From assembly GCA_910890315.1 (NCBI GenBank), contig CAJVGD010000027.1, positions 1-64,000 on the forward strand: a stretch of DNA of 64,000 nt. The letters are read 5' to 3'. A program made the translations under genes and the position numbers. This DNA comes from Serendipita indica DSM 11827 (Eukaryota; Basidiomycota; Agaricomycetes; Sebacinales; Serendipitaceae). Positions 27,897 to 43,114 of this stretch are shown in pieces. The number at the start of each line of letters is the position of its first letter. The first letter of the stretch is position 1. The notes under the pieces are model-generated. The model was not told where the DNA came from. It did no database searches and worked only from the letters and a program-made list of their open reading frames with translations.

Positions 27897-28838
27897 CGTA
27901 CGGGACCACCTCATGGTCTTTCCAGCTGATGACTTGTTGCTATTCATCCCTGTATAACGCCTGTAATCTACTTATGCCGTCTCAGTCGCCAGTAAACCTA
28001 AAATACGCTCTGCTTGGCACCATTAAGTCACTGGTTTACCGAAAGCTCCCGATCAACCGTCCTAGAAGCTAACCCCGCACTCGGCATCGGGTATGCCTCA
28101 GCCGGTTCAAGCTACCCGGTTGATCTCGAGGTTCGTTTTCCGCGCGATAACTCAATGTAGCTGGTCCTCAGTCCTGGGTTCACTCTATAGCCTATGACCG
28201 TTGATTGTTTTCCGCAAACGATTGGCTGGAACATTAACGCTGAGGGAATACTTCTCCGTTCGTTGATCTACTAGAGGGCCAGGACTGATTTCTCTCGCTT
28301 TCCTCCAGAACTGCCCTCTTCAGACTGGACAGGCACGAGGGACCAGTCATGACCGGCATTGGTGGACAATTCTGCGGGAGTATATTGCTCTTGGAAATGA
28401 CCCGTCAATTTTCTGGGTGCTGGCAACTGGCCGCATCCGCTCGCCACCGGCGCGACTTTCGCCGGATGGCCATTTGCCAGCGCAACAAAAGAGTCACCAG
28501 AGCGCGGTAAAAGCTGTATTTATCTGATCTAGAATTCAATGGATTCGAATGTATGACCGACCCCTATCGGCCCAGTAGTATTTCCGAACCCGTATGCGCC
28601 TCCCGCTCATTACCTGTCCGACCATTGACTCTCTTGCTGTTCGATATCATGAGAATCGACTGTATGGAGGGTTGTACGGAGAGAATGTCCTCCAGTGGGC
28701 TTGGCGGATGGTCGACTCATCCTTTGACAGGAGCGCCTTCTCTCTCGGCTACGAATAAAAGTTGGGCTACAATCGTAGAGGGAAGGATAAACGACGTCAC
28801 TGTCTCTCACTCGACAAGGATACATCACACCATTCGCT
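27897..28838. other. Upstream region of the first M43 copy
   Basis: 0.9 kb with no gene. It holds the inverted-repeat element at 28420-28480 and a TATA-like aataaaa at 28754-28760, 79-85 bp before the ATG. Confidence 0.6.
28420..28480 (+). promoter_or_regulatory. Inverted-repeat element upstream of M43 copy A
   Basis: Arms are CTGGCAACTGGCCG (28420-28433) and TGGCCATTTGCCAG (28467-28480), separated by 33 bp. The right arm ends 358 bp before the ATG at 28839. The same pair recurs at copies B and C, and single arms occur upstream of D and E. Confidence 0.65.
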
Positions 28839-30228
28839 ATGCTCTTCGAAGCCCTCATCGTATACGCCTCTTTAACCATGGCTTTCGCCGCTCCTTTCTA
28901 TAATTACACTCGGTATGTTTACTCGTACACACATGCAATTTTGAAAGCCTCAAGCATATCAGTTGCGCAAACCACTACAATTCGACACAGCTTCAGGCAA
29001 TGGAGGCACGATACACACAAGACCTCTCAGCTGCTGAAGCGTCAGGAAGCTTTCAGCGTTTGGCGCCACCTTCTACTGCTTCTGCTAGATCATCTTTGGG
29101 GCGATACGATGCCGAACTGTTCACGTTGGTGAGTGGTTCTTTGTACCCCCAATTTGCGACCTGTCTTACCGTCTGGTAGTTTGGCACATTATATACGAGT
29201 CTGGGACCGTGGAAGGAGGGTATATGAGTGACAAGGCAGTACAAGACTGTAAGTTTCCCTTTTCTATAGACCCAAACACTTAAATACACGCTAGCGATCG
29301 ATGCACTCAACGAGCATTACGGGGGAAACCGATTTTTGGTTTGTCCTCGATCGTACGACCCGCACAAAAAACAAGACGTGGTTTAACAAAGTCAACGTGC
29401 GTTCTCCGCTACAAGACGACATGAAGAAGCAGCTCCATGTCGGCGATGCGCGCACGCTCAACGTCTATACTGTCAACTTTCCAACTGCCGGGTTTCTTGG
29501 ATATGCACCGTATCCTCAATTCTACGCACAAGCACCATGGGACGACGGGGTGGTAATCAAGCATAGCTCTGTGCCCGGGGGAGGTTCGGTTCCTACTAGA
29601 TTGCTTTGTTGCTGCTTATTCTTCCCTAGCTGCTGTGAGCTTCAACCAAGGCAAAACACTGACGCACGAAGTTGGACATTGGCTTGGCTTATTACACGTG
29701 TTCAACGAGGATGGAAAATGTGTTGATTGGGATTTTGTGTCCGACACGCCCGTGCAATCAACTTGGACGGAAGGGTGCCCCACGTCAAAGGATAGCTGTG
29801 ATGGTCTTCCTGGGGAAGACTCAATTCACGTAAGTTTCTTTTTTTACTTTCCTATGGTAATACTGATTCAGGTTCTCAGAACTTCATGGACTACAGGTAA
29901 AAGCTATCGAGTCCTACTTTAGATTGCATCTAACGAGTTTGAAAGCACGGATGCTTGTTTGACGGAATTCACGCCTGGGCAGATTGCTCGGATGTATACA
30001 CAGTGAGTCTCCCCTTGGTTGTTCACTTGACGACTCACACTCACGGTCAACAATAGGTCCAATCTTTATCGCAAATTCAGTTGGGAACTATGCCGACCTT
30101 TTGATTGGCCAATTCTTACTAGAGTTCCCACTATAACGCGTCCCATTGTCACTGCAATCGCGACTGCTGTGATCCCGGTCATTCCAGTGATACCTGGACA
30201 TGGACTAGGTCCTGCTCCAGTTGAGTAA
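28839..30228 (+). pseudogene. M43-type secreted metalloprotease, copy A, frameshifted
   Basis: Tandem copy A keeps the family layout: signal peptide MLFEALIVYASLTMAFAAP, the pro-region QLQAMEARYTQDLSAAEASG, WHIIYES, the [11 protein letters not shown] and [19 protein letters not shown] blocks, and the full zinc site [11 protein letters not shown], with downstream DTPVQST and a C-terminal PVIPVIPGHGLGPAPVE tail. Compared with copies B and C it has two single-base frame changes: a missing base near 29111 (before the CRTV motif) and an extra base in a G run near 29315. They shift the frame in exon 2 and again in exon 4, and no alternative splice I can find repairs both. Either the copy is a recent pseudogene or the assembly has errors in it. 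Exons 5-8 are intact and its own promoter elements are kept. Confidence 0.75.
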
Positions 30229-40402: not shown

Positions 40403-41814
40403 CTAGAAGGGAGCCGGATCGGGTCCAGGGATGGGGCCACCAGGAATGTCGGGAGTGGGGACCGGCGGGAGGACAGTAAATGTGGGAGGCAACCATGTAA
40501 AAGTAGGTATGCTGATACACAACCTTGACGGAATCCTGCGATAGAGATCGGATCTTATGGTACAGTCAGCGCAGATGATGTATTAGAGACCGTTAAAACT
40601 CACTGTTCCTTCATACGAGTAATCTGGCCAGGGGTGAACGAAGTCATGCAAGAGTCCCAGCTACAACGCATTAGCTCCCAGGCTACTATGTTCAGTAGTT
40701 ATTCACCTATAGTCCATAAAATTCTAAAGAAGCGTCATTAGTAAGACATAATAGAAGGACGAAGAGTAACACACGTGGATCGAGTCTGCTCCCGGGAGGT
40801 TTGGGCAACTATCCTTCGAAGCTGGACATCCAAGAGTCTCAGTCGATTGAACGGGGGTGTCGGAGACCATGTCTTGTTCAACGCATTGACCTTGCTCGTT
40901 AAACACCTGTTTATGAAGATGAGTATAATGCGGTGTGAATAAAATGTGGCTTACGTGAAGAAGCCCCAACCAGTGGCCGACTTCGTGTGTCAGCGTTTTG
41001 CCCTGGTTGAAATTGGTGGCAGCTTTAGGAGTAATTTAAGCAGCTATAACAAAATACGAGGAAAGACCGACCTCCTCCTGGTACAGAACTATGCTTGATA
41101 ACTACACCGTCGTTCCACGGATTCGCGGCGTAATACTGAGGGAGGTACGCATATCCCAAAGCACTTGGCCGTGGAAAGTTGACAGTGTAAACATTCAGAG
41201 TCGTCGCATCGCCAACGTGCAGCTTCTTCTTCATATCGTCCTGGAGTGAGGAGCGAGAGTCGACCTTGTTGAACCATTCAGCGTTTTGCGTACGCGTGAT
41301 CTTGTCAAGAACAAATTTGAAGCCAGAGCCGGAGAAGTGAGTGTTCATGGCCTTGATCGCTATTGGGATGTTTAAGCACAGCGATTCGTCTGAGTAAAAG
41401 GGACTACGCACAATCCCTGACAGTCTGGTCGGACATATAGCCCTTTTGAACAGTGGTGGACTCGTAAATGATGTGCCAAACTAGAAAAAAAAAGGGCTGT
41501 TATGATGTGGTACATGGGAGAAAGGAAAGAACCCACCAACTTTCACCGTTCGACACAGTAGGGATGGAACAGTCAAGGTTGGGGCTAGTGCATCGTCGCG
41601 GTGAATTTCTCCAGCAGCTTCGGCAGCTTGGAGATCCTGAATATACTGCGCCTCGATAGCCTGGATATCAGATGCACTGTATGAATTCTCGCAACTACGA
41701 AGCCTTAGAAATAGTCTAGACTATGCAAATCTGTACGTACCGAGTGTAATTGGCAAAAGGAGCGGCGAGCCCGATGGCGAAAAGACTGTAGGCGAGGAGA
41801 ATATGAAAGAGCAT
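40403..41814 (-). CDS. Secreted M43 zinc metalloprotease, copy E, with Pro-rich tail
   Basis: Tandem neighbour and closest relative of copy D. Signal peptide [99 protein letters not shown], zinc site [11 protein letters not shown] followed, as in D, by an intron before [27 protein letters not shown], Met-turn NFMDY, and [15 protein letters not shown] end. The tail ([16 protein letters not shown] then [17 protein letters not shown]) is Pro-rich but differs in sequence from that of D. I traced all conserved blocks in open frame and think the gene is intact. The TATA box (tatataag on the minus strand, 41883-41890) lies about 70-76 bp before the ATG. It is divergent from carboxylesterase 2. Confidence 0.88.
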
Positions 41815-43114
41815 GGTGACTCGTAGTTCAGCGGGAAAATGAAGTTGCTCTAGTGCTGTAATCAACCTCCAAGTCATGCCGTCTTATATACGACAGCAGA
41901 GGAAAGAGGCTGTACTGAGGGCCACGGGCCAAGCAGCTCTTAACGTTACTGGTGATCCTCTCACACGCACGTAGAATGTATAGTCCAATATCATGTGCGG
42001 GATTGCGCACTTGATTGACATTGGGTCGGCCAGGTATCGGGGAGAGGCGCGTACAGATTCGCAGCCGCCGTTGCGCCAGCAGCATGGGCGCACCTGTCGT
42101 TTCAGGTGCATTCTCTTGGCTTACTGTCTCCTTGGCTTCGCCGACATGCAGCGTTCATGGATCAGCGTCTGCCGGTGTGGACGGCCAAATGCCAGCAGAC
42201 ACAGTTTTCGGATACAGCTGATAGTGGATCCGGCTTTGAATTGCCCCTTGCAAGTTGACAGGTTACACGTCCGTAAGAATGACGCGCCAAGGCCACTAGA
42301 ATTTTCCAAAGGCAAACGTGTTCTGTTTGTTGAAATGGACAGGGTGAGAACCAGTATCTCATACGAGTCATATAGTTATTCAGTATGTCTTCCAAAGAGG
42401 CATGTCGTCCCTTCTTGGCTTGAGGAGGCTGGCAGAGCTGAGGTCTTGGCCGCGTGGCCGAGAAATCGACTATGAATAGAGGCAGTTGCGTGCTATTTTA
42501 CTAGTATGGTGTTTCTTGGTAAAGTGCGCGACTGTGAGTACAAAGCCATGTCGAGGTGGAGACCAAAGGTTGCCACGGGCGTAATTTACGCAACATCAAC
42601 GTGCAGTGAATAACGTAAAGAATGCAAATAACAGCATTACTAATCACGGGCGTAGTGCTCTGCACGAAGCCAGCGGAATATTTCGTCTATGTAGTGGCAT
42701 CTCTCGACCTACTCGCCCGCCATGCAGTCGTTGTCAGCGCTTCTAATCATGCCCTTTCAAGCGCCAAAATGACCCTTTGACCGGCTTAATGATTTCTGAG
42801 TCACCGCAGAGTTCCACACCTCTGGCGAATTATCGTAGCCGAGGGAAATGGGTTACATTGTATATCCTACGGCGTTGGATATCTAGAGTATTCACTTTGA
42901 TGATGAGGAGCCTCCCCGCATGCAATCTCAAATGGTCGAGGGCTGAACTCGTATGGGTGGCCAAAGCTTTGGAGGGTTTGGATCTGTTCACGATATCATG
43001 CCGCGCTCAGAGCGCCAGTATCTCGCCGCTGTGCTGGTGAATATAATCTCTCATACGATTTTATGCTTCTAACGTGTGAACCAGGCGATTCCAGTTGCAA
43101 TCCTCCTCTTCAAC
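41815..43114. other. Divergent intergenic region between M43 copy E and carboxylesterase 2
   Basis: 1.3 kb, no intact gene recognised. It contains the 14-bp element at 42182-42195 and the TATA box of copy E, and must also carry the promoter of carboxylesterase 2, whose 5' end is unclear. Confidence 0.5.
42182..42195 (-). promoter_or_regulatory. 14-bp shared element upstream of M43 copy E
   Basis: CGGCCAAATGCCAG, identical to the element before copy D, 368 bp before the ATG of copy E. It sits inside a short imperfect palindrome (gtctgc ... gcagac). Confidence 0.6.

Follow-up and report, generated by a model that had tools for sequence, protein, structure and literature searches.

A 14-bp element private to the promoters of five clustered M43 protease genes of Serendipita indica: a putative regulator-binding site

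Why do five neighbouring genes for M43 metalloproteases carry the same short sequence at nearly the same distance in front of their start codons? The question is raised by a stretch of 64,000 nucleotides of Serendipita indica DSM 11827 (assembly GCA_910890315.1, contig CAJVGD010000027.1, positions 1 to 64,000; in the following "the window"), in which an earlier note had described a 14-bp element, CTGGCAWWTGGCCG, upstream of the clustered M43 genes A to E and had ascribed a regulatory role to it. According to the accessible text of the genome paper, M36 and M43 metallopeptidases are expanded in S. indica and on dead roots members of both families are greatly induced (PMC3192844), which calls for an account of their regulation; the statements on induction in that text name no gene of the A-E cluster (PMC3192844), and the accessible part of PMC7893156 contains no mention of an M43 gene. 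We consider it likely that the 14-mer is a binding site of a sequence-specific transcription regulator, which stood in an ancestral promoter and was copied together with the M43 gene as the clade A-E expanded.

Sites of the element and its restriction to the cluster

The element occupies eight sites in front of the five genes (mismatches are counted against its W-pattern, and 5' ends are given relative to the ATG):

28420..28433, + strand: gene A, distal arm, CTGGCAACTGGCCG; 1 mismatch; 5' end at -419
28467..28480, - strand: gene A, proximal inverted arm, CTGGCAAATGGCCA; 1 mismatch; -372
31139..31152, + strand: gene B, distal arm; exact, 0 mismatches; -417
31186..31199, - strand: gene B, proximal inverted arm; exact, 0 mismatches; -370
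33621..33634, + strand: gene C, distal arm, CTGGCAAGCGGCCG; 2 mismatches; -429
33668..33681, - strand: gene C, proximal inverted arm; exact, 0 mismatches; -382
39978..39991, - strand: gene D, single site, CTGGCATTTGGCCG; 0 mismatches; sense with the gene; -399
42182..42195, - strand: gene E, single site, CTGGCATTTGGCCG; 0 mismatches; sense with the gene; -381

All eight had been placed correctly in the earlier note, and its start-codon distances of 357-386 bp agree with 5' ends at -429 to -370 when measured from the near edge. The arm starts are 47 bp apart (33 bp between the arms) in each of A, B and C; positions and mismatches thus bear out the inverted repeat of constant spacing with both arms exact in B, where the arms, extended by one flanking base, are 15 nt long, 100% complementary and 33 nt apart. 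In the genome scanned (24,708,602 bases in 55 contigs, 24.7 Mb), CTGGCAWWTGGCCG has five exact matches, all five inside the A-E cluster, and the strict spaced palindrome is found only at A, B and C, so the exact element is private to the cluster. Allowing one mismatch yields 40 matches, of which seven lie in the cluster (the five exact ones among them) and 33 elsewhere, the latter number being near the arithmetic expectation of about 29 (156 words/4^14 x 49.4 Mb) and above the 19 of a backwards control. A looser form of the spaced palindrome adds one further place, on contig 40, and the loose core CTGGCANNNGGCCG has 21 matches, seven in the cluster and 14 elsewhere (estimate 12, control 4). 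Within the window, 29 matches with up to three mismatches stand against 14.67 expected, a number reached in none of 100 shuffles. Among the paper titles listed, none concerned fungal regulation for the words of the element, and none pointed to such an element for Piriformospora/Serendipita M43 promoters or basidiomycete TGGCA.

From this arrangement a dedicated regulator had been derived, which would bind the spaced inverted repeat as a dimer and co-ordinate the M43 protease family. The privacy of the element, together with the strict palindrome of constant 33-bp spacing restricted to A-C, is what such a regulator would predict, but neither part of the proposal is supported. The dimer is at odds with D and E, which have one arm only, and with the arm centres of A-C, which lie 47 bp, about 4.5 helical turns, apart; given these two observations, the A-C pair looks like a duplicated site and not like one obligate dimer site. 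Family-wide co-ordination is contradicted by the other members of the family: the genome holds at least 14 M43 genes, A-E and nine more (F-N), and although the element does stand upstream of all five clustered genes, none of the other nine has a copy at up to one mismatch in about 1.7 kb before its first matched place. None of the 33 outside matches falls within this distance upstream of F-N either; H and N have one match each with two mismatches. The element is thus not a marker of the M43 family as a whole. Nor was a regulator gene seen nearby by Pfam among the 20 of the 32 open reading frames of at least 150 aa that were scanned, a scan that is incomplete because genes here are split by introns. 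A dedicated dimeric regulator is therefore very unlikely.

The perfect 15-bp inverted repeat with its 33-nt loop in B could alternatively be taken for a structural element (a hairpin or cruciform, or the terminal repeat of a small mobile element) instead of a protein site. D and E are single-armed, however; the strict pair exists only at A, B and C, hence there is no mobile family; and in B, C and E a TATA-like word (at -84, -87 and -76; none in A and D by the pattern used) stands between the element and the gene, so that the element is probably not transcribed with the gene. To a structural origin we can give almost no credence.

Descent of the promoters and persistence of the element

A quick tree was built from 49 rows, 35 of them proteins chosen among 120 listed of 1139 matches and the remaining 14 genes of S. 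indica; in it A-E form one clade with a support of 100 in the Shimodaira-Hasegawa-like approximate likelihood ratio test (SH-aLRT), so inheritance explains why they share a promoter element. The clade holds only S. indica rows among the 49 chosen, the nearest other row by path being P0022 of Serendipita sp. 400, around which the fork is not resolved; the tree is to be read with its long branches (N, F and others) in mind. Common descent is also visible in the promoters themselves, in which a second shared block spans about -290 to -209:

28593..28623, + strand: second block, gene A
31287..31340, + strand: second block, gene B, in a diverged form (-269 to -216)
33792..33822, + strand: second block, gene C
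39802..39885, - strand: second block, gene D (-293 to -210), visible only through its match to E
42024..42053, - strand: second block, gene E

This block links A-C with E, and E with D. The promoter of E aligns with those of A, B and C at about -282 to -209 with scores of 31, 30 and 43, which were equalled in 0, 1 and 0 of 200 shuffles, and that of D aligns with E over the block (0 of 500 shuffles as high). Direct alignment of D with A, B and C gave nothing beyond chance, 184, 167 and 195 of 200 shuffles scoring as high, and a pattern of the block matches only A, C and E genome-wide, B and D being too diverged for it. The impression that the D and E promoters are otherwise unrelated to those of A-C is thus mistaken, since E is tied to them directly and D through E. 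Being common to A-C and E on the one hand and to E and D on the other, the block argues for an inherited promoter and not for independent recruitment of the element; the comparison indicates that the promoters of A-E were inherited with gene duplication, with islands kept, among them the TATA-like word in B, C and E.

How far the genes have diverged can be read from an 81-codon exon. Silent differences amount to 0.28-0.54 among A, B and C. In each of the seven pairs that set D or E against A, B or C, or D against E, they amount to 0.71-0.80, that is to saturation, with a synonymous divergence (dS) of 2.25-3.15 in three pairs and an undefined one in four. Over this distance the 14-mer is identical between D and E (14/14) and agrees at 12/14 positions between D/E and A-C. 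With A-C held fixed, the best 14-mer common to D, E and A-C scores 26.0. This score was reached in neither null: 2000 dinucleotide shuffles of D and E gave at most 24.67, and 2000 pairs of segments taken from the real genome at most 25.0. The next-best shared stretch, near -102 in D, scores 24.0 and is mainly common to D and E. One might nevertheless regard the element as a neutral leftover of duplicated promoters, a stretch merely not yet changed, as the homology of the promoters would permit; but silent sites are saturated from A-C to D and E and from D to E, so that the 14-mer has persisted beyond neutral divergence; its identity between D and E is 14/14, and the observed score was reached in neither null, which renders this explanation highly improbable. 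Maintenance by selection is the simplest account of these comparisons, and the element combines conservation past neutral divergence with a fixed promoter position, as a conserved cis-regulatory element does.

Three points weigh against treating the 14-mer as a regulator site in its own right. Other stretches are also kept (the second block, and -105 to -68 in D and E), hence the functional promoter may be longer and include the 14-mer as one part; the evidence of conservation comes from paralogs of one genome; and the three gene sets go back to a single series of duplications, which limits their independence.

The changes that did occur are unevenly distributed. Across the eight copies, columns 1-6 and 10-13 (10 of the 14) are invariant, and the changes are confined to columns 7, 8 and 9, apart from one at column 14. 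Counting D and E once, five of the six changes fall in columns 7-9 (binomial 0.002 if the window is taken as fixed, about 0.03 once 12 windows are allowed for), a pattern that, though weak after correction, suggests a bipartite 14-mer whose half-sites, CTGGCA and GGCC(G), flank a centre of 3 bp that tolerates change (CTGGCA-N3-GGCC). The longest block common to the A, B and C promoters, GGCCATTTGCCAGCGC, is 16 bp long and overlaps the proximal arm in 13 of its 14 bases. Directly after this arm, A-C share a further 24 bp, GCGCGAYAAAAGAGTCRCCAGAGC (28480-28503, 31199-31222 and 33681-33704), which include a GAGTCA word in A and B and were not found elsewhere in the genome at up to three mismatches.

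We can now state more fully how the element, as a putative regulator-binding site, would have come about. What such a reading has to cover is observed: the place of the element, its privacy to the cluster, its persistence across saturated silent divergence and its presence in promoters that share the second block. An ancestral M43 promoter carrying the 14-mer would have been copied along with the gene as the clade A-E grew, and selection would keep the 14-mer because a protein binds there, in B, C and E some 270-340 bp ahead of the TATA-like word; this protein would presumably contact the two half-sites, CTGGCA and GGCC(G), on either side of the tolerant 3-bp centre. The second, inverted copy in A-C may have arisen once, before A, B and C split, and may raise occupancy. 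The regulator to be expected would be of a shared hydrolase or nutrient/pH type acting on a subset of M43 genes, and not one dedicated to M43. Of the regulatory role proposed in the earlier note, what stands is a conserved, position-fixed and cluster-private element, best read as a putative regulator-binding site; co-ordination of the family, 9/14 of whose genes are without a copy, and binding as a dimer do not.

Known regulator motifs and the other M43 clades

Could the regulator be named from its site? In the following counts the hexamer background is mixed genomic DNA and not promoters, and related genes are not independent. Among 1920 hexamers in the 14 M43 promoters, GCCAGC, CGGCCA and CTGGCA rank first to third, A-E contributing by construction; in the nine promoters outside the cluster, TGCCAG occurs 10 times against 4.0 expected (p 0.008), GCCAGC 8 times against 3.0 (p 0.014) and CGGCCA 6 times against 2.7 (p 0.06). 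TGCCAG, the reverse of the half-site CTGGCA, is a variant of GCCARG, given as the PAC-3/PacC (PacC/Rim101) consensus in PMC6738131, with which it has GCCAG in common, and a pH-response site of this type would be in keeping with the richness of M43 promoters in GCCARG: 30 occurrences in 14 promoters (600 bp each) against 8.3 expected, about 3.6-fold over mixed genomic DNA, 19 against 5.3 when only the nine promoters beyond the cluster are counted, and rank 1 of 180 among permutations of its own letters. The block TCCTGGCAATCA of genes I, J and K, to which we return below, likewise has GCCAGG on its reverse strand. By contrast, GCCARG fits none of the eight element copies, which have GCCAGC or GCCAGA instead; the element is also longer than this word and probably bipartite, and promoters B and G are without GCCARG. 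When the 6144 hexamers with one R are ranked in the nine outside promoters against the mixed background, moreover, GCCARG comes 14th by ratio and 3rd by Poisson probability, hence the enrichment is not unique to it. We regard a PacC/Rim101-type site as unlikely, and take the abundance of GCCARG in M43 promoters as a lead only.

The site of PrtT, the protease regulator of Aspergillus, is given as CCGHCGG (PMC8419926). PrtT resembles the regulator expected here in that it regulates secreted proteases, but CCGHCGG is absent from the element, with one occurrence each in promoters B and D and none in the other 12. TGACTC words occur in A, B, D and E, not in C, and also in G and N, and are at background level in the nine outside promoters (2 against 2.2); GATA words (29 against 21.4 expected, p 0.08) are not clearly enriched. 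The E-box CANNTG is the site of basic helix-loop-helix (bHLH) regulators, and the centre of the element, CAWWTG, fits it in seven of the eight copies, a fit of low specificity as 13 of the 14 promoters hold at least one CANNTG; the invariant bases of the element reach beyond this hexamer (CTGG, GCC), and the distal copy of gene C breaks it. Taken together, the comparisons with GCCARG, CCGHCGG, TGACTC and GATA lead us to read the element as a putative site of a regulator that we leave unnamed. In kind it resembles the regulator-binding sites kept upstream of duplicated secreted-hydrolase genes in fungi, being short, position-fixed, promoter-borne and kept among paralogs, but its exact word is private to one five-gene clade.

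Other M43 clades possess promoter blocks of their own. Genes I, J and K on contig 15, a sister clade with silent differences of 0.57-0.66, have a single block of at least 9 bp kept in all three promoters, TCCTGGCAATCA, whose longer form is found at up to one mismatch only upstream of these genes:

contig 15, 346416-346433: promoter block TCCTGGCAATCARRGCTG, private to I, J and K
contig 15, 355542-355559: the same block
contig 15, 358070-358087: the same block

Like the A-E element, TCCTGGCAATCARRGCTG is clade-private and promoter-borne and includes CTGGCA; unlike it, the block has no GGCCG half-site and lies at about -190, not -400. Genes L and M differ at 0.66 of silent sites, and their promoters agree in 250 of 476 columns. 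TGGCATGCCCGA is the longest block that these promoters have kept; its longer form matches the genome exactly at two places, L and M, and with one mismatch at three others. TGGCA, part of the first half-site of the element, is present in both blocks. Of 200000 random pairs of 12-mers, 975 had one and the same 5-mer of the element in common (about 0.005, computed after seeing the data), and we treat the TGGCA core in other M43 clades as a lead only.

A scan for the bipartite form (CTGGCA, spacer 0-6, TGGCCG) in the nine other M43 promoters and 130 background segments gave scores of 9 (K, H, N), 10 (I, J, L, G, F) and 11 (M), with no full 12/12 match in the nine promoters and all scores within the background range of 8-11. 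Scores of at least 10 were reached by 6/9 promoters against 29/130 background segments (binomial about 0.006, for kin genes that are not independent and a mixed background). Local alignment of the A-E promoters with DNA upstream of the other M43 genes yielded two short matches, A-J (28) and A-L (29), which at a limit of 28 are at the edge of the shuffle maxima of 26-33. It is conceivable, if rather improbable, that the secreted M43 proteases of Sebacinales are controlled by one regulator through a common core, TGGCA, and that the composite sites diverged alongside gene duplication into CTGGCA-NN-TGGCCG (A-E), TCCTGGCAATCA (I/J/K) and TGGCATGCCCGA (L/M), each of which is kept inside its own clade and is private or nearly so in the genome. 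If this were true, the regulator would split the protease family into separately tuned regulons by changes in spacing and half-sites.

The locus and the significance of the element

The cluster and its neighbours are arranged as follows:

28839..30228, + strand: M43 gene A; end approximate; intron-split; frame here unlike protein P0003
31556..32816, + strand: M43 gene B; end approximate
34050..35427, + strand: M43 gene C; end approximate; protein P0002
36111-37620: carboxylesterase (PF00135) gene 1, between M43 genes C and D
38379..39592, - strand: M43 gene D; far end approximate
40603..41814, - strand: M43 gene E; far end approximate; protein P0001
43208-44867: carboxylesterase (PF00135) gene 2, adjoining gene E
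50872-52353: carboxylesterase (PF00135) gene 3, about 6 kb beyond gene 2
62761-63330, - strand: gene N, a sixth, distant M43-like gene of the window, without the element

The top named matches of the gene E protein are metalloproteases of Serendipita indica DSM 11827. At 29300-29340 in gene A the reading frame of the assembly is unlike that of P0003, which is from the same species and another contig, and P0004 carries an altered stretch at the same positions; an intact version of gene A exists, and the discrepancy may come from an error in the assembly or from a difference between strains. Upstream of gene B, a 31-nt direct repeat at 30777-30856 has two copies 49 bp apart, and none was reported in the four other promoter regions searched.

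The earlier note had not found the element in front of the three carboxylesterases. This holds near the starts of the first and third, where only matches with three mismatches occur:

35733 and 35932: 3-mismatch matches near the start of the first esterase
52336 and 52725: 3-mismatch matches near the start of the third esterase

For the second it has to be qualified, as the E site lies between gene E and this esterase. The two genes are divergent across 41815-43114, and the site is 803-920 bp from the candidate starts of the esterase (42998 and 43115), so that it could serve both genes.

In kind the finding is ordinary, a conserved promoter site in duplicated genes, and useful as a handle on its regulator. 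Lying upstream of secreted proteases, the element offers a compact and testable candidate for a clade-specific control site in Sebacinales. If the regulator can be fished with the 14-mer, this would give access to what controls a mutualist's switch between living inside root tissue and decomposing it.

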